A stretch of 64,000 nucleotides of DNA from Rhodohalobacter mucosus (GTDB taxonomy: Bacteria > Bacteroidota > Rhodothermia > Balneolales > Balneolaceae). The stretch spans positions 124,001 through 188,000 of the forward strand of contig NZ_QGGB01000001.1 in the NCBI RefSeq assembly GCF_003150675.1. The letters are read 5' to 3'. The number at the start of each line of letters is the position of its first letter. Positions within the stretch are counted from its first letter, which is position 1. The notes beneath the pieces were generated by a model. It saw nothing but the letters and a program-made list of their open reading frames with translations, was not told the DNA's origin and ran no database searches. Below, piece by piece: positions 34,827-49,069 of the stretch. The position numbers and the translations under genes were made by a program.

Positions 34827-36506
34827 GTGATGCGGAACTTTATGCAGGGTTCCGATGTAGCAGAAGGCCTTGACTACTGGCGAAAGAAGCTTTTTGCGGG
34901 TATAATGATCTACCTGCCGCCCCTGGGTTTACTGCTCGTGCTGCCTTCTCTGATTGTGGTTATTAACTCTCAGGTGCCGGGCCTTGCGATAAGCTATATT
35001 CTGACCCTCTTTATTGTCACTTTTATCGCGCTGTACCAGAACTTTACCCTTTTTGCGCGAAAGATTCTCTTTCTGTTTGTACTCTATTTCGTTGCATCGG
35101 TTCTGCTCTACTACCTGAACGTTATGGGGTCTGCTCTAACCTATTTTTATGGCATCACCATCTTTGCGCTGCTCATCGCCTCGAACCGTGCAGGGCTGAT
35201 TACCGTGTTTATCAATGCTTTTATTTTCGGCGTCTATGGCCTTCTGATACATTTCGGTTTGGTGGAGTATATTCTTCGAGACAGTTACAAAGTGGCCTCA
35301 TGGCTTACCATTTCCTCAAACTCCCTCATTCTCAGTATTGTCTCCGTTATATTGTTTCCCATTCTATTTGATGGTCTGCAGGAAACTATCGCCAAATACA
35401 GGATAGCACAGAATGAATTGAACCGTTCCCTCTCAGAGTTAAAACAGAAGAATCGTGAAGTGGAACTGACCCAGACCCGGTACAATACAATCTGTAAAAT
35501 TACCAACGAAGTAATATGGGAGTGGGATTTTGAAAACGATGTCCATTTCTGGATGGGCGAGCATGATAACCTGGTAAAAAATACCGCTCATCCGTCGGAG
35601 ATTTCGCTTGAAAGCTGGTTTGGAAAAATTCATCCCGATGATCTGGAGCGGGTAAAAGGTTCCTTTTTAGGGGTTGTACAATCCGATACCGCCAAGGACT
35701 GGAAAGAGGAGTACAGATTCAAAAAAGAAAATGGGTCCTATGCCTGGGTACTTGACCGGGGATTTATAATCAGAGAACCTGAAGGGAAACCTGTTCGTTT
35801 TGTAGGGGGTATGCTCGACATCTCTCCCATGAAAGACAACGAGATGTTTATCCGTGAATCGCTTGAAGAGAAAGAGACCCTTCTTGCTGAAATACACCAT
35901 CGCGTCAAAAACAACCTGGCGGCAGTTACAGGAATGCTGCAGCTGCAGCTTTTCCAGGAAGAGAACGAACAGCTTAGCGAGAAGCTCATCGACAGCATGA
36001 TGCGTATCAAATCGATCGCCAACATTCATGAACAGCTCTACCAGTCAAAAAGCTTCTCGAGGATAGACCTCGGGCGCAGCCTGGAGCAGCTTATCACCAC
36101 CGTTATAGAAACGATGCAAACCGGAACGGAGATTACATTGCAGTGTGAAAGTGATGATGTGGAGATCAGTGTAAATGAAGCCATACCCTGTTCGCTGGTT
36201 GTCAATGAAATCGTTACAAACATCATCAAACATGCATTTACAAAAAAACCGGACGGCATCATCAATCTTCGTGTGGCCTCGAAAAGCCCTGGCACATGCC
36301 GCATTGAGATAACGGATAACGGCGTGGGCCTTCCTGATGGTTTCCCGGAGAAAGCGGATAAGAAACTGGGTATGGAGCTCATTTCAACCCTTACCCGGCA
36401 GCTGGAGGCCGATTACGGATACGATGACAGCGGTGATACCACTACGTTTTATATGGAGTTCAAAGCGGGCATACAGGAAGCACCGCTTGATGTTGAATTT
36501 GCTTAA
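34827..36506 (+). CDS. Membrane sensor histidine kinase of the HisKA_2 type
   Basis: 559 residues. Six hydrophobic helices fill residues about 20-190, followed by a coiled linker, a PAS domain (about 215-340: EVIWEWDFENDVHFW ... WVLDRGFIIREPEGKPVRFVGGMLDIS) and HisKA_2 with H-box LAEIHHRVKNNLAAVTGML. The HATPase has N-box VVNEIVTNIIKHAF and G1 ITDNGVGLPDGF. It is a complete phosphorylation-competent kinase without its own response regulator nearby. GTG at 34827 and ATG at 34830 are adjacent starts. Confidence 0.93.
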   Translation: MMRNFMQGSDVAEGLDYWRKKLFAGIMIYLPPLGLLLVLPSLIVVINSQVPGLAISYILTLFIVTFIALYQNFTLFARKILFLFVLYFVASVLLYYLNVMGSALTYFYGITIFALLIASNRAGLITVFINAFIFGVYGLLIHFGLVEYILRDSYKVASWLTISSNSLILSIVSVILFPILFDGLQETIAKYRIAQNELNRSLSELKQKNREVELTQTRYNTICKITNEVIWEWDFENDVHFWMGEHDNLVKNTAHPSEISLESWFGKIHPDDLERVKGSFLGVVQSDTAKDWKEEYRFKKENGSYAWVLDRGFIIREPEGKPVRFVGGMLDISPMKDNEMFIRESLEEKETLLAEIHHRVKNNLAAVTGMLQLQLFQEENEQLSEKLIDSMMRIKSIANIHEQLYQSKSFSRIDLGRSLEQLITTVIETMQTGTEITLQCESDDVEISVNEAIPCSLVVNEIVTNIIKHAFTKKPDGIINLRVASKSPGTCRIEITDNGVGLPDGFPEKADKKLGMELISTLTRQLEADYGYDDSGDTTTFYMEFKAGIQEAPLDVEFA

Positions 36507-36926
36507 AGTGTTTGAGTGGTCAGTTGTTGGTTGGTTGCTGTTAATTGTTTATTGAAAATAGGACTTGTTCTGCGGTCCCCCTCTACCCCTTTCGCTTCGC
36601 GGTTCTACACTTAGCTTCTGTTTTCATTTCTGCCTTGCAACTCTACCGCAGACATAACTTGTATCTCTTTTATTGATTTTATCATCATATATGAATAAAA
36701 ACAGATTGATATAATTTAAATTGATCAATTATTAAATATTTTTGTATAAATTGAAATCAATTTTTCTCATTACTCAAAAACAAAAAAGAATTGATTCTTA
36801 AAAAATATTCAACTTAATTGGTAGTGAATCGTCAGGGATACTTTTTATGAAGCCGCACTATTATCCCTTTTAATAATTGCATGCCTGCTTTTCTATGCAT
36901 GCTTCAAACAAAAAAATGGGGAATTT
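36507..36926. other. AT-rich non-coding stretch with promoter-like elements
   Basis: 420 bp with no gene-like frame. It is strongly AT-rich from 36680 to 36840 and contains TATTTTTG, a perfect match to the Bacteroidota -7 pattern TAnnTTTG, but no TTG at the right distance upstream. A loose inverted repeat with two GCATGC copies (about 36878-36903) lies just before the next gene. Composition differs from surrounding coding DNA. Confidence 0.4.
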
Positions 36927-37745
36927 ATGATTCTAAAAAACAACCTTTACCTGGTATATATTCTTATAGGCTCGTTCATTTTTTTGACCGTTTATGCCTT
37001 AGAGGCAAATGGTCAGGAAAACAGAGGCGCTTCTTATCTGGTTCTGGAATTCATGCATGTTGATAATGAACAAGAAACAGCATACGGTGAAACGGAAAGC
37101 TTTTGGAGAAATATCCATCAGGAGCGTGTTAATGCCGGCGATATTATCGGATGGGATTTATGGTGGCTAAGACCGGGAGGTGAAAACCAGGGAGCACAAT
37201 ACCTTACGGTAACCATTTATGATGATCCGGTGGAGATGATGCAGGGCGGAAACTTTATGGAACATGCCCGCAATGCATATCCCGACATGAGTGATGAGGA
37301 GTTGATGGCTGAACTTGATAAGGGAGCCTCTACCCGTGATTTGGCCTCCCGGTACTATATGGCACGCGTTGGAGGGGTCGGTTCCGACTATGAGCTTGAA
37401 ATAGGCACTGTGAGTTCAATGGACATGATGAAAGTTGAATTTGATAATATGACGAGCTATGACATTTATGAGCAGACAGAGATGGACGTTTTTATGCCAT
37501 GGCACGAAGAAGCGATTCAGAATGGAACAAAAGAATCATGGGGATTATACCGGGTAATGTCTCCCATCGGAAATGCCACCGGATTCAGTCACATCACATT
37601 TAACATGTATAACGGATGGGAACAATACTTTTCCGGCGGCATGGGCGGTGATTCATTTTCCGACGATCTTTTAATTGAAAGAGGATTACAAACCAGAACC
37701 ATGGAATGGTCGTACCTGGCTACACTTATAGACATGGTACGCTGA
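36927..37745 (+). CDS. Exported protein of unknown function, possibly two dimeric alpha/beta-barrel halves
   Basis: 272 residues. A signal sequence (MILKNNLYLVYILIGSFIFLTVYALEANGQ) precedes two segments of similar character (ASYLVLEFMHVDNEQE ... QYLTVTIYDD and ELEIGTVSSMDMMKVEF ... GFSHITFNMYNG) resembling NIPSNAP/dimeric alpha-beta barrel halves. No catalytic residues are obvious. It starts with a GGGGAATTT sequence 2 bp before the ATG. A hairpin follows. Possibly grouped with the next lipoprotein gene, but 224 bp apart. Confidence 0.72.
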   Translation: MILKNNLYLVYILIGSFIFLTVYALEANGQENRGASYLVLEFMHVDNEQETAYGETESFWRNIHQERVNAGDIIGWDLWWLRPGGENQGAQYLTVTIYDDPVEMMQGGNFMEHARNAYPDMSDEELMAELDKGASTRDLASRYYMARVGGVGSDYELEIGTVSSMDMMKVEFDNMTSYDIYEQTEMDVFMPWHEEAIQNGTKESWGLYRVMSPIGNATGFSHITFNMYNGWEQYFSGGMGGDSFSDDLLIERGLQTRTMEWSYLATLIDMVR

Positions 37746-37783
37746 GTATATCTGACCAACCGTATGTAGTACCAGGATAACTA

Positions 37784-37812
37784 AAAGGGGGTGCATCAAT
37801 TCAGCCCCCTTT
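37784..37812 (+). terminator. Probable terminator hairpin
   Basis: AAAGGGGG (37784-37791) pairs with CCCCCTTT (37805-37812), 38 bp after the exported protein stop. The T-tract is short, so strength is uncertain. A tandem TTTTCAC/TTTTCCC-rich stretch follows at about 37830-37857. Confidence 0.6.
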
Positions 37813-37969
37813 ACTCCCCGCTTCGAACCCTTTTCACTTTTCCCTTTTCACTTTTCTGTCTCCTGCCTCCCGCCTCCTGCCAAAAAATGCATTTCTCATG
37901 AATAATTTTATATTGGCAATGAGGGTTCAGCTTACTGGCCGATATATGATTAATCAAGAAATCTAAGTC

Positions 37970-38932
37970 ATGGAAATAAAAAAGAGCTATACATCCGATA
38001 CGAAAATCACCATCTTTTCATTACCGGGTATCGCAACTATACTTGTTTTATTTTTAGCTGCCGGTTGTGCTTCCGAAACGCCCCCTGAAATGGAGCCAAA
38101 TAAAGTTACCATCACTGCTGTGGGACTAACCTTTGAAGCGCCCGATACCATACAGTCGGGCTGGACTACATTTCAGCTGGACAATCAATCCGACATGATC
38201 CATTTCGCCCTTTTTCAGAAATTTCCCCAGGGAAAAGGGTTGGTTGATCATCAGGAGGAAATAGCACCCTTTTTCCAGAATGTTATGAATGGAATCAATG
38301 GCATGGAACCCGCCGATCCGGAAATTGGCGCTGCACCGCCTGAATGGTACTCCAATGTGCAGATGATGGGCGGTCCCGGTCTTGTTTCCGGCAACTTGAA
38401 TGCGGAAACCACCTTCTATATTGAACCGGGAACCTACCTCGTTGAGTGCTATGTAAAAACCAACGGAATTTTTCACTCCTACAATCCGTCCCCCGATGTA
38501 TATGGAATGGCCATAGAGATTACCGTAACAGAAAATCCGGATGCAACCGCACCGCCCGCGTCAACATCCACACTGAACATTTCGAGCGAAGGCGGGATAG
38601 AGATGACCGGATCACAGGTGCGGGGCGAGAATGTCGTTGAGGTTATTTTTGAGGATCAGAATACCTATGCAAATTTTGTAGGGCATGACGTTCATCTGGT
38701 CCGGCTTGATGAAGCGGCAGATGAGGAGGCCATTTCGTCCTGGATGAACTGGACATCGCCCTCAGGACTTGAAACTCCTGCTCCGGCCACATTTATAGCC
38801 GGAACGAACGAAATGCCGGCCGGATCAAGTGCCTATCTTCACCTGAATCTGGAACCCGGCGACTACATGTGGATCGCAGAAGTTCCGGAGCCCGGGTCCA
38901 AAGGAATGGTGCAACGGTTTACGATTGAGTAG
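37970..38932 (+). CDS. Lipoprotein with cupredoxin-like beta domains, unknown function
   Basis: 320 residues. Lipobox LFLAAGC gives a lipid-anchored protein with Cys near residue 35. Two beta-sandwich-like halves are visible: VTITAVGLTFEAPDTIQSGWTTFQLDNQSD...FALFQ and a similar second part ending ... LNLEPGDYMWIAEVPEPGSKGMVQRFTI. The pattern resembles cupredoxin folds, although Cys/Met copper ligands are not clearly placed. No named family recognised. Confidence 0.75.
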   Translation: MEIKKSYTSDTKITIFSLPGIATILVLFLAAGCASETPPEMEPNKVTITAVGLTFEAPDTIQSGWTTFQLDNQSDMIHFALFQKFPQGKGLVDHQEEIAPFFQNVMNGINGMEPADPEIGAAPPEWYSNVQMMGGPGLVSGNLNAETTFYIEPGTYLVECYVKTNGIFHSYNPSPDVYGMAIEITVTENPDATAPPASTSTLNISSEGGIEMTGSQVRGENVVEVIFEDQNTYANFVGHDVHLVRLDEAADEEAISSWMNWTSPSGLETPAPATFIAGTNEMPAGSSAYLHLNLEPGDYMWIAEVPEPGSKGMVQRFTIE

Positions 38933-39136
38933 ATCCGAAACTGGTATTTTCTACAGTTTTATTTTCTGGCTTGCTCAAACTTTTTCTGCAGGTAATATGA
39001 TTGATGTGGATATAGCAACTCCTGCGCCTGACCGGTAGTCAGTTAAAGATTTCATTTTATGTGATTCCGCTGGATATCAGTTCTGCATCCCTCCTATATT
39101 ATTATTTATATTCAATGCGGAATTGAATTCAAATCT

Positions 39137-40969
39137 ATGCGACTTCGCAAGTTTTATGATGAACTGAAGCGCCGGAATGTATTTCGGGTAGCAACGGTAT
39201 ACGCTGTTACAGCGTGGGTATCCATACAGGTGATAAATACGGTTTTTCCCATTCTTAAACTGCCCGCCTGGTCAGTTACGTTGCTTACTGTGCTCATCAT
39301 TATCGGTTTTCCCTTCGCACTCATCTTTGCCTGGGCGTTTGAATTGACGCCTGATGGTATCAAAACAAGCTCAACCAATGATAGTAAGGTTGACAATGTT
39401 GATGCATTAAACGAAGGGGATGACCGGAAGAAGGCTGCTGAATCCGGTGACGAACCTGCAAACCAGGCCTTCTTCAACAGAGCTTTTAAAGTGATTCTAG
39501 TAGTGATTATACTTGTTTCCGGTATGTATATCTGGAATCTGAGCAGTGAGGAACCGGGAGGCTCCCGGCAACAACAATCCATCGCTGTGCTTCCCTTCGA
39601 AACCATTGACGGTACCTCCTCCACATCGATTACCAGTGGAATACAGGTAGGCCTGATGACACGCCTTTCCAGTATTTCCGGCTTACGAGTTATTTCAAGA
39701 ACCTCCACCCTTCAATATGCCAGTATAATCAAACCGGTTTCAGAAATCGGTGAAGAACTCAGTGTTGAATGGATTGTGAGAGGTGAGGTGCAGGAAGCAA
39801 GTGATCAGATCCTTGTGAATGCTCGACTGATCCATGCTTCGGAAGATCGTCAGGTTTGGGCAAAAGACTATCAGCGCAGACTCACATCAGAGAATATTTT
39901 TGATATTCAGAATGAGCTGACCCGCGAAATCGCAGGAGAGCTTCAGACACGGATCAGTGCGGAGGAGAGTACCCTGATTGACAGGAAACCGGCAGATAAT
40001 CTTAAGGCTTACAGAGACTTTGCACAGGGAGTGAGTTTACTGGAACAGAGAACCCAGCAAGCCATTCTGTTATCCGTGGATTACTTCATGAATGCTATTG
40101 AGGAGGATCCGGATTTTGCTCCGGCATGGGCTATTCTGGCAGAATCTCTGATCTATATCAAATATTATAACTATGCGGACATCAACGACTACAGCATCAC
40201 CGCAATTGAGGCCATTGAAACGGCGCTTGAATTGAACCCCAACCTGGCAGAGGCCCATGCCTCCCTCGGGATCCTGAGGTATACAGAAAAAAACGGGCCC
40301 GAGGCAATTCGTTCACTACATAGAGCTGTCGAGCTTCAGCCAAGTTTTGAGACTGCCTTTAACTGGCTTAACTTTGTCTACCTGCTCACAGGCAACCGTG
40401 AACAGTCGTTGAAATACGCTGCTGAAACCATTGAATTAAGCCCTTTTGCACCCGCTGCACGACTCTATCCTTCACTCAGTTATCTCGCTAACGGGCAGCC
40501 AGAAATGGCACTGCAACAAGTACAGCGCGCCCGTGAAATTCAGCCTGAATGGGGTGAGGTGTATGCGATTCTTGGACTGATTCAATATCATAATCAGCAG
40601 TATGAGAATGCCCTTGAATCATTTCAAACAGCCGACAGCCTGATTGCAAACGAGATCAGCTCCATCTGGGTGCCGGATGTCAGAACAATGGTTGAAATCA
40701 CACGACTAAAATTGAACTATGAAGAATTACCCGGTCAGACGGACATGCGGCTGCTTCCAAAAGAGAATCGTTTTTGGGAAGGATTAAAATTATCTGCTCA
40801 AGGAGAGCACGAACGGGCAGCCAAAGAATTTGAAAATATACAGGAGTACAGCATGTGGCCCAATCTTTCCATGCGCTACTACTTCCCTGAATTATTAAGT
40901 GAATTTCGATCCCGTCCCGAATATGAAAAGATCATTCTTGAGATAGAAGAAGCCTGGTCCGGGGAGTAA
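39137..40969 (+). CDS. Membrane-anchored FlgO/TolB-like plus TPR protein
   Basis: 610 residues. It begins MRLRKFYDELKRRNVFRVATVYAV, the typical N-domain of a widespread family that precedes a TolB/FlgO-like domain (SIAVLPFETIDGTSSTSITSG ... VEWIVRGEVQEASDQILVNARLIHA). Two membrane helices are near residues 35-70 and one near 115-135. At least five TPR units follow (FAPAWAILAESL; NLAEAHASLGI; EWGEVYAILGLIQYHNQQYENALESF). Often fused or linked to adenylate cyclases in other bacteria; no cyclase domain here. Its stop codon TAA is the first 3 bases of the terminator repeat. Confidence 0.88.
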   Translation: MRLRKFYDELKRRNVFRVATVYAVTAWVSIQVINTVFPILKLPAWSVTLLTVLIIIGFPFALIFAWAFELTPDGIKTSSTNDSKVDNVDALNEGDDRKKAAESGDEPANQAFFNRAFKVILVVIILVSGMYIWNLSSEEPGGSRQQQSIAVLPFETIDGTSSTSITSGIQVGLMTRLSSISGLRVISRTSTLQYASIIKPVSEIGEELSVEWIVRGEVQEASDQILVNARLIHASEDRQVWAKDYQRRLTSENIFDIQNELTREIAGELQTRISAEESTLIDRKPADNLKAYRDFAQGVSLLEQRTQQAILLSVDYFMNAIEEDPDFAPAWAILAESLIYIKYYNYADINDYSITAIEAIETALELNPNLAEAHASLGILRYTEKNGPEAIRSLHRAVELQPSFETAFNWLNFVYLLTGNREQSLKYAAETIELSPFAPAARLYPSLSYLANGQPEMALQQVQRAREIQPEWGEVYAILGLIQYHNQQYENALESFQTADSLIANEISSIWVPDVRTMVEITRLKLNYEELPGQTDMRLLPKENRFWEGLKLSAQGEHERAAKEFENIQEYSMWPNLSMRYYFPELLSEFRSRPEYEKIILEIEEAWSGE

Positions 40970-41017
40970 AAAAGCTCCGATTCATGATTAGAATACGGAG
41001 CTTTTTCGTGGTACACC
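40967..41017. repeat. Left copy of the tRNA-Arg/terminator repeat (candidate attachment site)
   Basis: A 51 bp sequence: A-run, GCTCCG, 16 nt loop, CGGAGC, T-run, then CGTGGTACACC. It is identical except for one A to 43025-43076 next to tRNA-Arg(ACG). GGTACACC on the plus strand is the tRNA 3' end plus CCA seen in reverse. The hairpin should terminate transcription of the TPR gene. The two copies enclose the Fic gene, as expected for a direct-repeat bounded insertion at the 3' end of a tRNA gene. Confidence 0.85.
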
Positions 41018-41092
41018 TTTTTGGGATTTCATGTACCACCAGGTTTGAAAACTCTGAATTTTTGATAGTCGCAGATTTTTGAAAATGAAATT

Positions 41093-42298
41093 TCAAATAG
41101 TTCCCTCCGGGTAGAGCGAAGGAAAATAGTACCCCACTACCTTCGATGGAATATGAAATTGTAATGGTGCCCTGTGACTTGCCGACTTGATTAGCTCTTC
41201 ACTTTCAAGCTGACTTGTCAAATCCCTGGCTGTTCGCTCTGCCAAACCAGAAATTCTTTTTGCTTCGCCACGTGCTATTTCACCTCTCATCATAATTTCT
41301 GCCAATACATATTTCGCTTCTGTCCGTAGTGGCTTTTCATTTGGGATCATTTTTTCTGATCGCAGATTCACATACCCTGTTATGCGCTCACGAAGTTTAT
41401 CAAGCTGCAATACCTCTCTCATAAACGAGACCTGGTCATCAGCCACATCAAAATAAAATTCACAGAAGCGATGCAACCCTCTTTCAGATAAGTTGCCGCG
41501 CCCATCAAAATCGCCTTTACGGCCAGCGTCCGCTACTGCAAGAAATTCTTTATAATCTTCTATTCGGCGGGCAAGCCCTCTGGATATTGTCCACAACCCT
41601 AACGAATCCAACTTCACTTTTTTCATATATGCATAGCTAAACAGACGAGAAACTCGTCCATTTCCATCTATAAACGGATGTATCCATGCTAGTCTGTGAT
41701 GGCTTGCGGCAGCTGCAATCAATTTCTTATGGCCAACAAGTTTCTCTGGTGAATAGGCATTTTCAAATCGGTCAAGAAACAACTCAAGCGATTCTGCCTT
41801 GGGGGGAATATGATTCGCTATTTTTACTTCCCTCGTTCTAATTTCCCCCGGAACCATTTTTAGAACATCACCGGTATCGGGATCATTAATATTTAAAAAG
41901 TTTTCAGGTACCCGCTCATAAAACTCTTTGTGTATACTGCACAAGAAATCCTTTGAACAAACATTTAATCCCGGATTTTTACTGAGCCAGCTGTCAATCA
42001 AATCTTGAACGTCGATATGCGCTACATTCAGTTTTTGCAGGCGTTTCTTTTTTTCATCTCTGCTAAAATCATTTTTTACCGCTCTTTCAATATCTGCCGG
42101 TGCCGTATGCTCGCCTTCTATTCTGTTAGAATAATAACTATTAATATGGCGAAGCAATCTGGTGACCTCTCTTCGGGTGACAGGATGCAACAGATCATCC
42201 AGTGAGGCTGATTTACGAAATACCTCCATGGCTAAATGTATTAAATCCGAGGAATCCTTCGGAAACATAGGTTCCATATGGCGCGGATGATCAAACAT
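41093..42298 (-). CDS. Fic-domain AMPylase-type protein
   Basis: 401 residues. The Fic motif HPFIDGNGRVSRLF near residue 205 contains His, Asn-Gly-Arg and second Arg needed for nucleotide transfer. Just upstream, SNRIEGEHT (about residue 58-66) is the inhibitory helix with conserved S-x-x-x-E-G (class II Fic), so the enzyme is likely held in check by its own Glu. A C-terminal winged-helix-like region (ARGEAKRISGLAERTARDLTSQLESEEL) suggests DNA binding or protein recognition. It transfers AMP or a similar group to protein hydroxyls. It is the only gene in the direct-repeat-flanked islet. Confidence 0.95.
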   Translation of the reverse strand: MFDHPRHMEPMFPKDSSDLIHLAMEVFRKSASLDDLLHPVTRREVTRLLRHINSYYSNRIEGEHTAPADIERAVKNDFSRDEKKKRLQKLNVAHIDVQDLIDSWLSKNPGLNVCSKDFLCSIHKEFYERVPENFLNINDPDTGDVLKMVPGEIRTREVKIANHIPPKAESLELFLDRFENAYSPEKLVGHKKLIAAAASHHRLAWIHPFIDGNGRVSRLFSYAYMKKVKLDSLGLWTISRGLARRIEDYKEFLAVADAGRKGDFDGRGNLSERGLHRFCEFYFDVADDQVSFMREVLQLDKLRERITGYVNLRSEKMIPNEKPLRTEAKYVLAEIMMRGEIARGEAKRISGLAERTARDLTSQLESEELIKSASHRAPLQFHIPSKVVGYYFPSLYPEGTI

Positions 42299-42446
42299 AT
42301 CATTAAATGATAAGTATTTGTTTTCCTATTATTTTGCCGGTTTATTTTCCGGTTATTATCCAGGCATAAATAGTTGTTTCAAATAGGAAAATATGTTATT
42401 TGAAGAACATTTATATATCTTTTTTTGCCGGTTTATTTTCCGGTTA
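42299..42446. promoter_or_regulatory. Repeat-rich region upstream of the fic gene
   Basis: It holds ATCATT-A-AATGAT around 42299-42311, a 24-base-scale direct repeat at 42331-42355 and 42421-42446 (core GCCGGTTTATTTTCCGGTTA), and an inverted pair TTCAAATA (42378-42385) / TATTTGAA (42397-42404). On the gene's strand each direct repeat contains two AACCGG units. This suggests two operator sites around the promoter and self-regulation by the Fic protein's winged-helix region. Confidence 0.5.
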
Positions 42447-42588
42447 ATCGGGAAGGTCAGGTGCAGACGGGGGTCGTATTCATTTTAGTTTTTATAATTC
42501 TGCTAAAAATCAGCCTGTCACAACCAATCTGTTCACAAATTACAAAGGCTCAGATTCCGGATTGGAAATCCGAACTTTCTATTGTGCT
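42447..42588. other. Gap between fic leader and tandem repeat array
   Basis: 142 bp. It has one short hairpin (CGGATT...AATCCG near 42559). A 74-codon frame starts here and runs into the array, but its last part is repeat DNA, so it is not called. Confidence 0.3.
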
Positions 42589-43074
42589 CCCGACAGGTGA
42601 GAACCCCGAAGCATGCCTTCGGAACAACAACGCCCGGATCCGTTTATGACATGCGGCCATAAAAAAAAGCTCCGATTCATGATTAGAATACGGAGCTTTT
42701 TCATAGTACACCCGACAGGTGAGAACCCCGAAGCATGCCTTCGGAATATCAACGCCCGGATCCGTTTATGACATGCGGCCATAAAAAAAGCTCCGATTCA
42801 TGATTAGAATACGGAGCTTTTTCATAGTACACCCGACAGGTGAGAACCCCGAAGCATGCCTTCGGAATATCAACGCCCGGATCCGTTTATGACAAGCAGA
42901 CATAAAAAAAGCTCCGATTCATGATTAGAATACGGAGCTTTTTCATAGTACACCCGACAGGTGAGAACCCCGAAGCATGCCTTCGGAACAACAACGCCCG
43001 GATCCGTTTATTGACAAACGGACATAAAAAAAGCTCCGATTCATGATTAGAATACGGAGCTTTTTCGTGGTACA
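42589..43074. repeat. Four tandem 121-122 bp units made from tRNA-Arg 3' end plus terminator
   Basis: Units start at 42589, 42711, 42832 and 42953, each with CCCGACAGG (the reverse of tRNA-Arg 3' sequence CCTGTCGGG), then GTGAGAACC, hairpin CCGAAG-catgc-CTTCGG, CGCCCGGATCCG and the AAAGCTCCG...CGGAGCTTT terminator hairpin. Unit joins read CATAGTACACCCG where the true tRNA gene has CGTGGTACACCCG, so CCA is lost in inner copies. They differ by few bases (AACAACAAC versus AATATCAAC; ACATGCGGCC versus ACAAGCAGAC). This is not CRISPR: no unique spacers. Confidence 0.93.
43025..43070 (-). terminator. Terminator of tRNA-Arg(ACG)
   Basis: On the minus strand, AAAAAGCTCCG and CGGAGCTTTTTTT form a strong hairpin with a T-run, directly after the tRNA CCA end. 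Further copies lie in each array unit, so readthrough meets up to four tandem terminators. Confidence 0.85.
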
Positions 43075-43144
43075 CCCGACAGGATTCGAACCTGTAACCG
43101 CCTGATTCGTAGTCAGGTACTCTATCCAGTTGAGCTACGGGTGC
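43071..43144 (-). tRNA. tRNA-Arg (anticodon ACG)
   Basis: Minus-strand cloverleaf: acceptor GCACCCG pairs with CGGGTGT, D-arm AGCTCAACTGGATAGAGT, anticodon stem CCTGA/TCAGG with loop CTACGAA giving ACG (arginine CGN codons, A34 to inosine), and T-loop GGTTCGAATCC. An encoded CCA follows the discriminator A (TACCA before the terminator). 74 nt without CCA. Its 3' end is duplicated in the tandem array and at 40967-41017. Confidence 0.95.
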
Positions 43145-43278: not shown

Positions 43279-43284
43279 TCAAAG

Positions 43285-43358
43285 TACGCCCGTAGGGATT
43301 CGAACCCCAAACCTTCTGATCCGAAGTCAGATGCTCTATCCAGTTGAGCTACGGGCGC
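43285..43358 (-). tRNA. tRNA-Arg (anticodon UCG)
   Basis: Minus-strand cloverleaf: GCGCCCG pairs with CGGGCGT (last pair G-U), D-arm AGCTCAACTGGATAGAGC, anticodon stem TCTGA/TCAGA with loop CTTCGGA giving UCG (arginine CGA), T-arm GGGGTTCGAATCCCT. CCA is not encoded (ACTT follows), unlike the ACG gene. Transcribed toward tRNA-Arg(ACG). Remodelled copies of its 5' half follow at higher coordinates. Confidence 0.93.
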
Positions 43359-43627
43359 AATTATCGTCAGTATTTCAAAAATCGTTATTTTCGGATCAGT
43401 ATAGATCCAATGTCAGATGCTTCCCGACGTCTCGGGATTGAACTACGGGCGCATTTATTGTCAGTATTTCAAAATTCGTTATTTCCGGATCAGTATAGAT
43501 CCAATGCCAGATGCTTCCCGACGTCTCGGGATTGAGCTACGGGCGCAATTATCGTCAGTATTTCAAAAATTGTCACTTCCGGATCAGTGTAGATCCGAAG
43601 TCAGATGCTTCCCAAGGTCCCGGGCGC
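43359..43627. repeat. Tandem ~94 bp units derived from the 5' half of tRNA-Arg(UCG)
   Basis: ACGGGCGC-like junctions lie at 43351, 43445, 43539 and about 43620 (spacing 94, 94, 81). On the minus strand units start GCGCCCGTAGCTCAA like the tRNA, then TCCCGAGACGTCGGGA replaces the D-loop, then AGCATCTGACATTGGATC resembles the anticodon 5' side. A GGATC...GATCC hairpin follows. The last unit lacks D-arm DNA and is diverged. They cannot fold as normal tRNAs (no T-arm or 3' acceptor). Confidence 0.88.
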
Positions 43628-43948
43628 ATTATTCATTTCACAATGTCAAAAATGCTTTCGTAAAAAGCCTTCCTCAAAGGGCATTAGCAGCGTTACAATT
43701 ATCAGCAGATGCAGACTTGTCAATCTTTTCAGATCCCGCTTTCGCACCTACGCCATCAATATACCGTAATGCCTTCCCTGCAAAGAAATCCATAGTTTTT
43801 TACAGAGCATTAAAGGTAAGAAATTCTTTGTATTGAAAAAACGCATTTCGCCAATACTCTTTCCATACGGATTCAGGAAGTATTGCCTTGTGCTTTTTTT
43901 CAGACAACGCTGAAGGGTTGCAGTCTTCACAACATGTTCGGAACGAAA
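43628..43948. other. Intergenic region upstream of the tRNA-Arg pair
   Basis: 321 bp with no gene-like frame; long plus-strand frames here are repeat-derived or lack domain content. It should contain the promoter of the minus-strand tRNA genes or of the array transcript; TTGTATTGAAAAAACGC near 43830 is one AT-rich candidate area, but no consensus was found. Confidence 0.3.
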
Positions 43949-45193
43949 TTAATCACTGTCTTCCTGCTGCCCGTTTGACTCTTTAAATGCCATTTTCTCC
44001 TCTTTTGTCGGTATTCTCACATCAAACTTTCGCCGGGTTATAATCAAACTGCCATCCTTTAACATCTTCCGGCGATATCCGAATGCGTGCAGAAAATCGT
44101 GAAAAAACTTCTTATTCAATATGGGGTGCACCATGATCGTATTTTCATCATCCGGATGTTTTTTAATACCCGGTAAATACCGAAGATACCTGCCCAGGTT
44201 ATGGGTGCGCAGGTATCTCGACAGGTCAAGCTTAAACTCACTGATCTCTCTGATAATAAAAAATCCGTCATCGCCCTGGGACTGATACAGAGGCATGAAG
44301 ATTCTGCCGGAATATGGAGCCTTGATTTCACCATATTGATTATCCGCAAGTATTTCACCTTTTTTCACTTTATCGAACGTGGCGTAACCCGATCGCATCT
44401 GAAACTTCTCGTCTTCTCCAATCTTATAGGTAAACTTCAGGTCAAAAATTTTCCTGTTTTCGGCAAGTGACCTGCAAAGCCGCTGGTAATGAATATTGTA
44501 CTTGGGTATATCATTTTTTTCCATTGACCCCAGAATTTTCAATGTATGCCAGATAAACGAGATGTTGTTTTCAACGGCTGCCATTGAGTAGTGTTCACCG
44601 GCCTCCAGAGCCACGCCGGAGTGGCCTCTTTCATTGATATAATTCATAAACGTACCGCGCATCGCTTCATCAAATCCGACTACGCAAGGCAGTGGGTATT
44701 GGAGGGCGAGCTGACGATTTCGTATCGTATCGCTCGCTCCGATGAATGGCGGACTTACCGATGACGTTGTATGGAGATCAAATACAAAAACGGGGCCGTC
44801 TGCCTGATCAAAGACGGGATTCAATATGTCCAGTAACTCTTTTTGTTGCTTTTGCTCATTCCCGACAGGCAAATTTCTTTCATCGATAAATCCGAGCTTC
44901 TGCAGCCTGTCGGTGACCCAGATTCTGTTCATATCGTTATCAATCCAGCGCACTCCTTTATCCAGCGCTTCCAGATTCCCGGCAAACGCAGCAATTACCT
45001 CTCCTGAAAAGGACGGCTGAAGCCTGTTCAGGTATTCAAAAACCTGACTGAGGGCAAAAATACTGGATGTTTCATTGCCATGAGTTCCACCGATAAAAAC
45101 AATTACAGGCCCCTCCTTTTCACCCTTATACTTTCCAAGAATCCGGCCGATTTCTATGGTCTCATCTAAAGCTCTGTTTGTGACTTCAATCAT
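43949..45193 (-). CDS. AstE/aspartoacylase-family zinc hydrolase
   Basis: 414 residues. M14-like zinc motif GGTHGNETSS (His-x-x-Glu, near residue 34-43), DNDMNRIW near 83, DLHTTSS near 122 (third metal His) and catalytic-type Glu in GVALEAGEHY near 200 are intact. A C-terminal beta domain (GEILADNQYGEIKAPYSGRIFMPLYQS) follows. Family members deacylate N-acyl amino acids (succinylglutamate, N-acetylaspartate). It starts 6 bp after the GCS2-CBS gene stop; that link suggests it removes or edits a product of the ligase. Substrate unknown. Confidence 0.92.
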   Translation of the reverse strand: MIEVTNRALDETIEIGRILGKYKGEKEGPVIVFIGGTHGNETSSIFALSQVFEYLNRLQPSFSGEVIAAFAGNLEALDKGVRWIDNDMNRIWVTDRLQKLGFIDERNLPVGNEQKQQKELLDILNPVFDQADGPVFVFDLHTTSSVSPPFIGASDTIRNRQLALQYPLPCVVGFDEAMRGTFMNYINERGHSGVALEAGEHYSMAAVENNISFIWHTLKILGSMEKNDIPKYNIHYQRLCRSLAENRKIFDLKFTYKIGEDEKFQMRSGYATFDKVKKGEILADNQYGEIKAPYSGRIFMPLYQSQGDDGFFIIREISEFKLDLSRYLRTHNLGRYLRYLPGIKKHPDDENTIMVHPILNKKFFHDFLHAFGYRRKMLKDGSLIITRRKFDVRIPTKEEKMAFKESNGQQEDSD

Positions 45194-45199
45194 AATATT

Positions 45200-47110
45200 T
45201 CATGATTCTATTTCACTATGCTTTGCATATTTTGTGACATTGAAAAGGTCGTGTCCGGACACAATCCCTATCAGACGGTTATCTGAAACGACAGGCAGCG
45301 ACTTTAACTTCTCCCGGTCTAAAATATTCGCAGCTTTCCGGGCTGAATCGTCCGGATTTAACGTGAATTGCGGTTCCCTGACAAGTTCAGCAAGCTTTGT
45401 CTTCTCTTCGGTTAGGCCGTCTTTTGCTTCCCGGTAATAATTCATCAGGTCTGATGAGGTCAATAAACCACACAACGACCAGTTTTCATCTACAACCGGC
45501 ACCACGCAGTGATCATGCTGTTTCATTTTATATGCGGCCTGATCAATTTGCTCATCATAGCTAAGTGTAAAAACCTTGTCCGTCATGAATTTTTTTACTT
45601 CAAGGCTTCCCCAGTCTTGAATTTCAAAGTCATATGAGTCCGGAGTCATCCATTCGTGAACCGGAGAACCCTCTTTTTGCCGTTTCAGAATTTCAGAGGT
45701 CAAAATTGCATTTGATACAGGTGGCGTATTTCCCGTACTGATTTTTTTATGTGCATTTATCATCCATACCGATCCTGTCTGGCCGTTGTCGATCCGTGAA
45801 TGTATAACACCCAGATACTTTTCAATTTCCTCCTCCGCCAACCCGGCTTTTTTCAAACCGTTCCCGGCAATGGGAAGCAATTCATTTCTGATTAATTCGG
45901 ATGCTGAGCGGTTTTCGCCATTGATCCAGTTAAAACCTGCATCCAGGCCGTATTGTGCCGCTTTTATCGTATTTACTTTCACTTCATGGAAGTCCATTTT
46001 TACAGGCAGATTTGTATATTTTTCCGGCAATCCATGCATTAACCCGAGCCAAAAAGCAGCATTTGCAACTTCGTCGTGCACGGTCGGCCCCGATGGCATC
46101 AGCCTGTTTTCCACTCTGAGGTGAGGTTTGCCATTCATTACACCGTAACAGAGGCGGTTCCACCTGAAAACTGAACTGTTGAATACTTCAAGTGATCGCA
46201 GATCCGGTATTTCCCCCTCTTCATACTGTTTGGGGGAATCTGCGAATTCAGCAGGCCTCATAAATATATCGTACCGGGTCAGGTCGTCCCTGTATAGTTC
46301 GAGTGGGGATTCTTTCAGCCATTTGGATCCAAAAGGTACACGGAGGTAATTATCGGATGCATGATAGTTCGTCTCCCTTGTATCCACGGCTTTTTGGAAA
46401 AGGGCAATTCGGGTTTCATGCCAAAGCAATTTATCCAGCAGATAGGGCGAATTACCTCCAGCGGCTAAAACAGGGGCTGCAATAAGCTGTGCATAATTAT
46501 ACTGTGCCGGTATGTTCTCAGCATCAAGCTGATAATGCATCTGAAAACTGGTGTTGCAGTACTGAAACAGGTTTGACTTATCTTCTGCCACCAAGCGTTC
46601 TACCCCATCGATTTGAATGACATATTCATTGCGCCGCAGCTCATTCATTGCACGAATCATATATCGGAACCGGTCTTGAGGGGTCATATGTTTTTTGCTG
46701 ATATAGTGCCTCCTGATAGTTGGCAATATTCCTATCAACATTACATCACAATTCAGCTTTGAGGCGGCATCGCCTGCCTCTCCGATATATTTATAAAGTT
46801 TCTGTTCAAGCGAATCCAGTATCCCGGATTTAATTTCAAGCGGTTTCAGGTTGATTTCCAGATTGTGCCTGGCCAGTTCTGTTGTAAAAAAATCTTCATC
46901 AAGGTGCTTAAGAGCATCCAAAACGACGGGAGAGGGATACAATTCACGATCAACCAGACATAGTTCCTGCTCTATTCCCAACCGGTTTGCTCTTTCAATT
47001 CTACTATCACCGATCAAAGCTTCCAGCGTGCTGATATCCTTCAGGATATAGTCCAATGCTTCTTTCTGTTCGTCCGCACCCTCAACCCTCTTTATCTTTT
47101 TATATCCCAT
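45200..47110 (-). CDS. Glutamate-cysteine-ligase-2-like amide ligase fused to two CBS domains
   Basis: 636 residues. GCS2-type ligase (about 35-420): NRLGIEQELCLVD, ELARHNLEINLKPLE, SFQMHYQLD, AGGNSPYLLDK and RVENRLMPSGPTVHDE carry the glutamine-synthetase-like ATP/metal residues. Two CBS domains close the protein (about 510-565: TDKVFTLSYDEQIDQAAYKM; about 570-632: ADKDD-like NPDDSARKAANIL ... LPVVSDNRLIGIVSGHDL). It likely forms an amide bond from a carboxylate and an amine under nucleotide control through CBS. Such fusion is uncommon. Operonic with the AstE-like hydrolase. Confidence 0.9.
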   Translation of the reverse strand: MGYKKIKRVEGADEQKEALDYILKDISTLEALIGDSRIERANRLGIEQELCLVDRELYPSPVVLDALKHLDEDFFTTELARHNLEINLKPLEIKSGILDSLEQKLYKYIGEAGDAASKLNCDVMLIGILPTIRRHYISKKHMTPQDRFRYMIRAMNELRRNEYVIQIDGVERLVAEDKSNLFQYCNTSFQMHYQLDAENIPAQYNYAQLIAAPVLAAGGNSPYLLDKLLWHETRIALFQKAVDTRETNYHASDNYLRVPFGSKWLKESPLELYRDDLTRYDIFMRPAEFADSPKQYEEGEIPDLRSLEVFNSSVFRWNRLCYGVMNGKPHLRVENRLMPSGPTVHDEVANAAFWLGLMHGLPEKYTNLPVKMDFHEVKVNTIKAAQYGLDAGFNWINGENRSASELIRNELLPIAGNGLKKAGLAEEEIEKYLGVIHSRIDNGQTGSVWMINAHKKISTGNTPPVSNAILTSEILKRQKEGSPVHEWMTPDSYDFEIQDWGSLEVKKFMTDKVFTLSYDEQIDQAAYKMKQHDHCVVPVVDENWSLCGLLTSSDLMNYYREAKDGLTEEKTKLAELVREPQFTLNPDDSARKAANILDREKLKSLPVVSDNRLIGIVSGHDLFNVTKYAKHSEIES

Positions 47111-47488
47111 CCAGGGTTTTCTCTGTTTTAATTACACGTTTTTTCCAACAGGTCATCCATAACCTAACCTGTTCTGGTTCTTTTAGTTATAACGATTATA
47201 TGTAGCAAGGCATTCAATTTTCGAATATCGGGGCACTTGCAACCGCGGCCAAAGCTAAACACATTGATAACAGATCTCTTTTAGCAAAGTATAAGCCTGA
47301 ACATTTTATACCTGCTCTGCCGGAAAACAGCTGCAGGTGGCAGCAATCCTGTTATTGATGGAAGCCTCACACATGCCTTTTATGTTTTCATGCCCTTCCA
47401 GCAGATGACTGTAAATGATGGCAAGGTGAATTCTGTTATTACAGTACATAGGTACTTTCACACAATATGAACCCAAAAACCCGTATTT
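47111..47488. promoter_or_regulatory. Divergent intergenic region, GCS2-CBS versus TIR-like gene
   Basis: 378 bp between divergent starts. No recognised gene or strong repeat. A minus-strand frame of 104 codons crosses the TIR-like start and lacks recognisable content. It should contain both promoters. Confidence 0.35.
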
Positions 47489-47911
47489 ATGGCTACTATC
47501 GTTCAAACACGCGATATATTTATTGCGCACGGATGGCAATACAGTGATCATATACACAAGCTGCAGGAAGAGCTGGACAGGGCCGGCAGAATGGATGATC
47601 AGTTTGCCTATGTGAATCATGGAAATTACGATACCAGGGAACCCATGGAGACAGCATTGGATAGCCTTGACATCACAGTTAAAGATCAGATGGCTAAAGC
47701 GGATGTATTTCTTTTGCCCGTCGATTTATATGATGAGCATAAAGAGTGGGCAGAGAAAGAACTTAAACTTGCAGAGGATATGGATATGCCGGTAATAGTT
47801 ATCCGATCCTATAAAAATCGTGAGACGCCCGCTCATCTTGAGGAGAGGGCCGACGATATCATTGTATTCGATCCGGAAGAGATACTTCGTTCAGTCAAGA
47901 ATTATGGATAG
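47489..47911 (+). CDS. Stand-alone TIR-like (DUF1863/ThsB-type) protein
   Basis: 140 residues forming one flavodoxin-like alpha/beta domain: RDIFIAHGWQYSDHIHKLQEEL (beta A, alpha A), FAYVNHGNYDTREPM, then TVKDQMAKADVFLLPVDLYDEHKEWAEKELKLAEDMDMPVIVIRSY (beta D to beta E). This matches the TIR-like fold of DUF1863/ThsB proteins; E in the EWAEKELKLA helix corresponds to the usual conserved acid. In Thoeris defence ThsB makes a nucleotide signal; here no ThsA or other effector is adjacent. Assignment to fold is good, function uncertain. Confidence 0.75.
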   Translation: MATIVQTRDIFIAHGWQYSDHIHKLQEELDRAGRMDDQFAYVNHGNYDTREPMETALDSLDITVKDQMAKADVFLLPVDLYDEHKEWAEKELKLAEDMDMPVIVIRSYKNRETPAHLEERADDIIVFDPEEILRSVKNYG

Positions 47912-48127
47912 CATATTCCATGTGTTGTCTTAAATCTTTCTGAAAGCATGTTGCACATTTAGGAGAAGATGCTGCTGAACTCTTTCCTGTAACGTGTTTT
48001 TAAGGCCTTTTCCGTTTCTTTCACCACATAAACATCACGCAGGTTGCAGTACTTGCCATTCGGCACTTTCTTCTTTTACCCGCTCGATTGATGTTGTATA
48101 ATTGGGTAACCCTTCATCATCCCTACA

Positions 48128-49069
48128 ATGAAGAAAGAGACCTTCACAACCAAATCGCAAGGTTACAAGATTCTGCACTGCACACAATGGGTGCCCGATT
48201 CCCCACCTGCAGGCGTTATTCTGATTCTGCATGGCCTGACTGAACACTCCGGACGATATAGTCATGTGGCCCGCTTTTTTACGGGCCATGGGTATCTTGT
48301 TTGTGCTTACGATCACCGCGGACACGGCATGACGGATCCCGACCATCACGGATTCATAGATGCCAGTGCCTCCTCTCAGTTTGATCTGCTTGCGGAAGAT
48401 GCGATCCACGTATTCACGCTATTGAACAATCGCTATCCGGATCTGCCTCTTTTCGTGCTGGGCCACAGCATGGGATCTTTCCTGGCTCAAAGAATGATGC
48501 AGCTGCTTCCAGAGGATTCAACAGAATTACCGGCGGGCCTCATCTATTCGGGAAGCAGCGGAAAGCCACCTCTTACACTATATGCCGGTAAGTTTCTGTC
48601 GAAGTGGATCATGAAGCGCAAAGGTCCGGCCTATCGCAGCCAGCTGATTCACAATCTGGTGTTTGGCCGCTTTAATAAGCCGTTTGAGCCTGCCCGGACA
48701 GAGTTTGACTGGTTAAGCCGGGATAAAGATATGGTTCAGCTGTTTGTGGATGATCCCGCCTGTGGATTTGTTCCTTCTGTGAGTTTTTATCATCACTTTT
48801 TCAGCGGACTCCTTAAGCTGCACTCCCACCGTCCCTTTGCAGGAGCTTCGGTTCACACACCGATCCTGGTTATTGGCGGTGACCGGGATCCAGTTTCCGA
48901 TATGGGAAAAGGGGTTAAAGCACTGAAGAAACTTCTCACCCGATCCGGAAATGAGGATCGCGTGGACCTGATGATCTACCAGGGCGCACGCCATGAACCG
49001 CTCAATGAAATCAACAGAGACGAGGTATTTACCGATATTCACAACTGGATCGGACAGGTCTCGTCCTGA
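48128..49069 (+). CDS. Monoacylglycerol-lipase-like alpha/beta hydrolase
   Basis: 313 residues. HG motif LHGLTEHSGRYSHVARFF near residue 35, YDHRGHGMTD near 66, nucleophile GHSMGSFLAQ near 120, catalytic Asp in IGGDRDPVSD near 255 and His in GARHEPLNE near 290. This is the serine-aquaporin-like (Hydrolase_4) subfamily to which monoacylglycerol lipases belong, cleaving short acyl esters. No signal peptide, so cytosolic. Alone on the plus strand; 216 bp of unassigned DNA precede it. Confidence 0.92.
   Translation: MKKETFTTKSQGYKILHCTQWVPDSPPAGVILILHGLTEHSGRYSHVARFFTGHGYLVCAYDHRGHGMTDPDHHGFIDASASSQFDLLAEDAIHVFTLLNNRYPDLPLFVLGHSMGSFLAQRMMQLLPEDSTELPAGLIYSGSSGKPPLTLYAGKFLSKWIMKRKGPAYRSQLIHNLVFGRFNKPFEPARTEFDWLSRDKDMVQLFVDDPACGFVPSVSFYHHFFSGLLKLHSHRPFAGASVHTPILVIGGDRDPVSDMGKGVKALKKLLTRSGNEDRVDLMIYQGARHEPLNEINRDEVFTDIHNWIGQVSS

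Follow-up and report, generated by a model that had tools for sequence, protein, structure and literature searches.

Tandem repeats carrying tRNA 3' ends beside a fic gene at tRNA-Arg(ACG) of Rhodohalobacter mucosus: a tRNA-anchored array and a possible island relic

The 3' ends of tRNA genes are classic landing sites of bacterial genomic islands. At a tRNA-Arg(ACG) gene of the salt-lake bacterium Rhodohalobacter mucosus, a fic gene lies between two copies of a repeat that carry the 3' end of that tRNA, raising the question of whether these copies are att sites left by the insertion of fic or have another origin. The locus was analyzed within a window of 64,000 nucleotides (contig 1, positions 124001-188000) of the 3.9 Mb genome. 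A first-pass annotation of the window had proposed a tRNA-targeted islet in which the fic segment duplicated a terminator upon insertion, the mobilizing enzyme having acted in trans or been lost, and had named empty sites in relatives and other cargo at the same tRNA as places to look.

The left side of the locus starts with a sensor histidine kinase gene (34827..36506, plus strand), the conserved left neighbor of the tRNA-Arg pair in relatives, followed by a block that is extra compared to the relatives L213 and G042 (36507..40966, plus strand) and includes two uncharacterized ORFs (36927-37745 and 37970-38932, plus strand) and a gene for a TPR protein (39137-40969, plus strand). A detached repeat copy on the minus strand (40967..41017), consisting of a tRNA-Arg end with CCA plus a terminator, overlaps the TPR stop codon. 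It is followed, all on the minus strand, by a sequence after fic resembling the distal end of a tRNA-Arg island in G018 (41018..41092), the 401 aa fic gene (41093..42298), four tandem units of ~121 bp (42540..43025), the tRNA-adjacent copy of the tRNA 3' end and terminator (43026..43076), the intact anchor gene tRNA-Arg(ACG) with encoded CCA (43068..43144), and its partner in the conserved tRNA pair, tRNA-Arg(TCG) (43284..43358). On the 5' side of tRNA-Arg(TCG), three tandem partial pseudo-tRNA copies of ~94 bp were also observed (43344-43624), two of which had the D-loop replaced by a 16-nt hairpin (TCCCGACGTCTCGGGA; two matches versus 0.04 expected in shuffles), and hairpin-replaced pseudo-tRNAs of similar type occurred in G002, G005, G007, G010, and L213.

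The direct repeat itself was as the first-pass annotation had described, with 50 of 50 bases identical between 40968-41017 and 43027-43076 and one A of difference in the adjacent run (six in the left copy, seven in the right). The right copy adjoins the intact tRNA gene, and the minus-strand reading of the left copy (GGTGTACCACG) is the acceptor end with encoded CCA. The view of fic as flanked by just two copies did not stand, as the 50-mer was present six times in the window (starts 40968, 42542, 42663, 42784, 42905, and 43027) including the four tandem units. The inner copies at 42663, 42784, and 42905 were each 96% identical to it and that at 42542, in the diverged most distal unit, 64%, the inner copies having GTGTACTATG at the place where the outer copies have GTGTACCACG. 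The tandem array that separates fic from tRNA-Arg(ACG) has a period of 121 and was delimited at 42589-43083 (4.1 copies, 96% matches). Both the array score and a perfect 50-base direct repeat 2 kb apart are far beyond chance.

In the orientation of the tRNA, each unit consists of a tRNA end (...CCTGTCGGGTGTAC) copied from the T-loop onward, a terminator hairpin whose T runs can serve either direction, a spacer that contains another hairpin, and a hairpin core (GCGTTGATnTTCCGAAGGCATGCTTCGGGGTTC), directly after which the tRNA end restarts. A model of the core matched once in every unit on the minus strand, namely at 42963..43007 in the unit adjoining the tRNA, 42842..42886 in the second, 42721..42765 in the third, and 42599..42643 in the most distal. 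The unit folded far more stably than its shuffles (z -4.8), and an Rfam scan of it gave nothing above gathering score except the tRNAs. A search of the own genome for the unit gave no occurrence beyond the tRNA-Arg(ACG) locus, and the core was present again behind tRNA-Ala(GGC) on contig 2 (56602-56996, locus L158) in an array of period 175. At L158, some of the T-arm in the tRNA copy is replaced by a small extra hairpin (CCCCGAGGCTTCGGGG).

In a gap-free alignment of 20 cores drawn from nine genomes, 97.5% of the hairpin positions were paired. Two pairs showed double changes (G-C/C-G and A-U/G-C), and compensatory changes were counted in 11 cells compared to 4.1 in shuffles, a value reached by 0 of 500. 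A covariance model of the core run on 28 congeneric and 129 order genomes matched 23 of the former and 35 of the latter, all Balneolaceae and belonging to 7 of 39 genera. The tRNAs near these matches were for Ala, Arg (three anticodons), Asn, Asp, Leu, Met, and Pro. The distance from tRNA to the start of the core hairpin was 72-93 bp in 24 of the 28 tRNA-core pairs, and the 3' end of the array's own tRNA followed the core on the same strand in 22 of them; over all 28 pairs, the mean alignment score was 17.1 (out of 21) for the own tRNA versus 7.6 for other tRNAs. In some arrays (G024, G091, and G005), the final core gives way to unique sequence. An exact-pattern scan of the contig collection identified 17 stretches labeled Balneolaceae or Rhodohalobacter and one labeled Pleurocapsales, and the named records with the core included Rhodohalobacter sulfatireducens WB101 and Balneolaceae MAGs. 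The Pleurocapsales cyanobacterium record (JADEXJ010000221.1, here L213) has Balneolaceae-like tRNAs, array unit, kinase, and genes, and is probably contamination of the cyanobacterial assembly. No description of the family was found in the literature on tRNA-end repeats in this group, of which coverage was partial. With six copies in the window and the same family behind many tRNAs, the repeat is therefore part of a tRNA-anchored tandem array family of the Balneolaceae, in which each array carries its own tRNA's 3' end, rather than a simple att pair.

Comparison with relatives, where the empty or near-empty sites belong to other species and not to conspecific strains, showed that the 6.5 kb between kinase and tRNA-Arg(ACG) in R. 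mucosus correspond to 389 bp in G042 and to about 0.2 kb in L213. In L213, the kinase (69% identical) is followed by the terminator, a tRNA copy, one unit, and directly by tRNA-Arg(ACG); as this unit occurs without fic, the array can predate fic. G042 has a kinase homolog (41%) near the tRNA with neither unit nor fic between, and G007 has a PAS kinase and a response regulator in this interval. In R. mucosus, the interval is taken up by the two uncharacterized ORFs and the TPR gene on one side of the left repeat copy and by fic and the array on the other. This division into two blocks suggests successive insertions, and the borders of the insertion are uncertain because the 4.5 kb with the TPR gene are also extra here. 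Neither the TPR protein (no ortholog in relatives, best about 36% identity) nor the AstE protein (only paralogs, elsewhere) could serve as an empty-site anchor. The right side (43360-48110) also looks inserted, with AstE-like, glutamate-cysteine-ligase-like, and other genes, and the ORF at 48110-48502, which is 4.7 kb away from the tRNA pair here, has homologs in G007 and G042 that lie no more than 0.2 kb from it.

That tRNA-Arg(ACG) is a hot spot for tRNA-directed insertion, as the first-pass annotation had supposed, was borne out by other cargo at the same gene, in the form of integrase islands of 29-40 kb in the tRNA-Arg(ACG) gene of G015, G018, and G023. These were bounded by 45-55 bp duplications of the tRNA 3' half and had their integrases at the tRNA-side ends. 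G015 carries two tandem islands of 36.6 and 40.2 kb (att copies at 231960 and 272168, tRNA at 195311), G018 one of 28.7 kb (att 2178, tRNA-Arg(ACG) 30910), and G023 one of 35.3 kb (att 402718, tRNA-Arg(ACG) 367354), the tRNA-Arg(TCG) partner of G023 also holding an island. In G010, G020, and G024, array units come after an att half of the island type, so that islands enter upstream of arrays. At the fic locus no integrase remnant was found, and the four PF00589 matches of the own genome were on contigs 2, 3, 5, and 7 with none on the contig of the window, in agreement with the earlier statement that the stretch has no integrase.

The Fic protein is intact, matching Pfam Fic (E 1.1e-15) and containing HPFIDGNGR and an N-terminal SNRIEG motif; the stretch HPFIDGNGRVSR together with SNRIEG agrees with the class II motifs HPFxxGNGR and (S/T)xxxE(G/N). 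The PADLOC SoFic model aligned across most of the protein (E 8.5e-28), and the NCBIfam SoFic equivalog gave 28.9 of 550 bits, far under its cut-off, indicating a relative of SoFic and not an ortholog. The closest homolog (90% aa identity) was encoded on contig C49 of G019, with dN 0.047, dS 0.55, and a dN/dS of about 0.09 between the two genes, demonstrating purifying selection. Being complete and under such selection, the SoFic-like enzyme is plausibly kept as cargo, as a putative defense or stress AMPylator predicted from its sequence. The G019 contig also carries an AbiE-like pair and another Fic-like gene, and at its end a tRNA-Met att half is joined to array units. Among the 28 congeners, fic was present in seven, always elsewhere than at this locus, and in one case (G015) it adjoined tRNA-Arg(CCT) on the 3' side. 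The 75 bp after the fic stop gave an alignment score of 32 with the distal G018 island end (shuffles maximum 17, n=300), and a search of the whole G018 genome with this tail returned C12:2257-2313, beside the att copy at 2178-2224. This match is weak (E 0.011), and the force of so short a match is its position and not its E-value. The motif GGTGGTACA, present at both ends of the G018 island, occurs in the window only at 41032-41040, within the fic tail. The arm-site label for this motif and tail, like the label AbiE-like, is our own putative reading of the sequence and not a tool call.

An account in two layers, in which a tRNA-anchored repeat array is joined by a fic segment that would be the distal remnant of an integrase-type island, is the one we hold with somewhat better than even confidence. 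The fic gene is most likely the relic of a tRNA-targeted island whose integrase was lost. An integrase-type genomic island would have entered the tRNA-Arg(ACG) hot spot, after which the integrase and most of the island would have been lost, leaving fic and the island end. On its kinase side, the fic segment would be bordered by a tRNA end and terminator copy that had been displaced, and later copying or recombination among the repeats may have made the outer copies perfectly identical; recombination between the outer copies would also let the fic segment leave. The islands of relatives, the match to the G018 end, the tRNA-Met contig of G019, the empty sites, and the patchy occurrence of fic are all consistent with a putative island origin. 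The absence of fic from the corresponding place in relatives and the tail match likewise favor the first-pass claim that fic was acquired, and its suggestion of a lost integrase fits the islands, empty sites, and tail match. Against an island, the locus yielded no integrase remnant, the left copy holds 11 nt of tRNA versus the 45-55 nt duplicated by the islands of the genus, and identical outer copies with differing inner ones are unlike an old att pair, so that a further event is needed.

A rather unlikely alternative is that fic did not arrive by way of an integrase island at all and was inserted into, or recombined within, a pre-existing array; a circle with array repeats might, for example, have integrated through homologous recombination at a 50-bp repeat. 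On this alternative, the flanking copies would be plain array members, in line with the perfect identity of the outer copies and with the one unit of the same variant already in L213. A parallel case without integrase was observed in G022 (contig 37, L120, 10700-16660), where a block of ~5.5 kb with an AbiE-like pair and other genes lies between array units behind tRNA-Met, and it too speaks for recombination within an array. The fic tail, resembling an integrase island end with GGTGGTACA as at the G018 ends, and the 90% identical Fic in a tRNA-Met island contig speak for the island remnant instead.

The multiplication of the arrays bears on whether the unit itself might be mobile. Across 18 arrays (one further locus, L176, was left out), the terminator after the last tRNA copy resembled the first in 10, as tandem duplication predicts, and the sequence after the last tRNA copy was unrelated to that after the tRNA in the other eight. 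Pure slippage, with each unit a copy of the tRNA's downstream region, thus fits 10 of 18 arrays and not the remainder. In G007, tRNA-Arg(ACG) is followed directly by CATTTTATTGACATAGGCAAATTGCCGTAAGCGCCC, and in G002 one whole unit precedes CATTTTATTGACATAGGCAAATTGCCGTAAGCGCCC, a presence/absence difference in which gain is indistinguishable from loss. This one-unit difference and the unrelated ends of eight arrays permit a doubtful reading of the array unit as a minimal mobile element of ~100-120 bp that would insert precisely at tRNA 3' ends and regenerate the tRNA. It would be similarly doubtful that the hairpin core builds the arrays as an enzyme-driven cassette system, with cargo such as fic and the AbiE-like block between units. 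Two candidate movers of the core were rejected. The number of cores was uncorrelated with RAYT/Y1 transposases (Spearman -0.09), and core numbers were equal with and without an integron integrase (p 0.93). The latter (TIGR02249, above cut-off) was identified in 15 of 28 genus genomes, including the own genome (contig 2, 508308-509249), and many arrays occurred in genomes without it (G024, G021, and G010).

The islet originally proposed, a 2-kb segment placed by a trans-acting integrase between the TPR gene and the tRNA with duplication of their shared bidirectional terminator as att, is improbable. It would account for the perfect 50-bp flanking repeat and for relatives without fic at the corresponding place. 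However, the repeat is one of six copies from an array family found at the 3' ends of many tRNAs, one unit of which stands in L213, and the genus islands duplicate a 45-55 bp tRNA half and not the terminator, so that a reading of the 51-bp repeats as an att duplication made by the fic insertion is not supported. The expected empty site of TPR stop, terminator, and tRNA was not the one seen in the relatives, in which the tRNA neighbor is the histidine kinase and the TPR gene and two further genes are extra in R. mucosus. Nor did the shared terminator hold, as a homologous terminator lies behind the same tRNA in relatives and is therefore the tRNA's own and not derived from the TPR gene. That the repeat is a general terminator or REP-like dispersed sequence with an incidental tRNA link is very improbable. 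It would fit the free-standing cores that have no tRNA nearby, seen mainly in G021, G092, and G020, but is contradicted by the own-tRNA ends on the same strand at near-constant spacing in 22 of 28 pairs, and the lack of correlation with Y1/RAYT transposases also speaks against it.

Across the family, the arrays copy the 3' ends of tRNAs that serve seven amino acids and share a covarying hairpin at near-constant spacing, which points to recurrent duplication of tRNA ends by some common process. The arrays also carry a warning that matters for automated island calling, as a direct repeat that terminates in the 3' end of a tRNA is not necessarily an att site. In Escherichia coli, the tyrT gene (rtT RNA) is followed by tandem units that each repeat the tRNA's 3' end, and the old puzzle of these repeats becomes testable in a group where the event happened many times.

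The R. mucosus locus resembles E. coli tyrT/rtT in that a tRNA gene is followed by tandem units that each contain its 3' end. It differs in the absence of an Rfam RtT match, in the involvement of many tRNAs each with its own 3' end, and in a covarying hairpin core common to all arrays. In Salmonella, a 122-bp VNTR is listed near an rtT RNA entry (PMC2658671). Similar to REP/RAYT systems, the core is a short intergenic hairpin with some dispersed copies, but its number does not track Y1 transposases and it is bound to tRNA 3' ends. Integron cassette arrays share head-to-tail hairpin units and occasional cargo, and integron integrases are present in the genus, whereas core numbers here are independent of the integron integrase. 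The Fic protein is like SoFic-type AMPylators in its PADLOC SoFic match, Fic motif, and N-terminal inhibitory-type motif, and unlike them in falling far under the NCBIfam SoFic equivalog cut-off. Finally, tRNA-targeted tyrosine-integrase islands have in common with this locus the target gene, variable cargo, and empty sites in relatives, and perhaps also a displaced tRNA 3' end and an island-end-like motif, whereas the locus is without an integrase, its displaced tRNA piece measures 11 nt rather than 45-55, and its flanks are array units.
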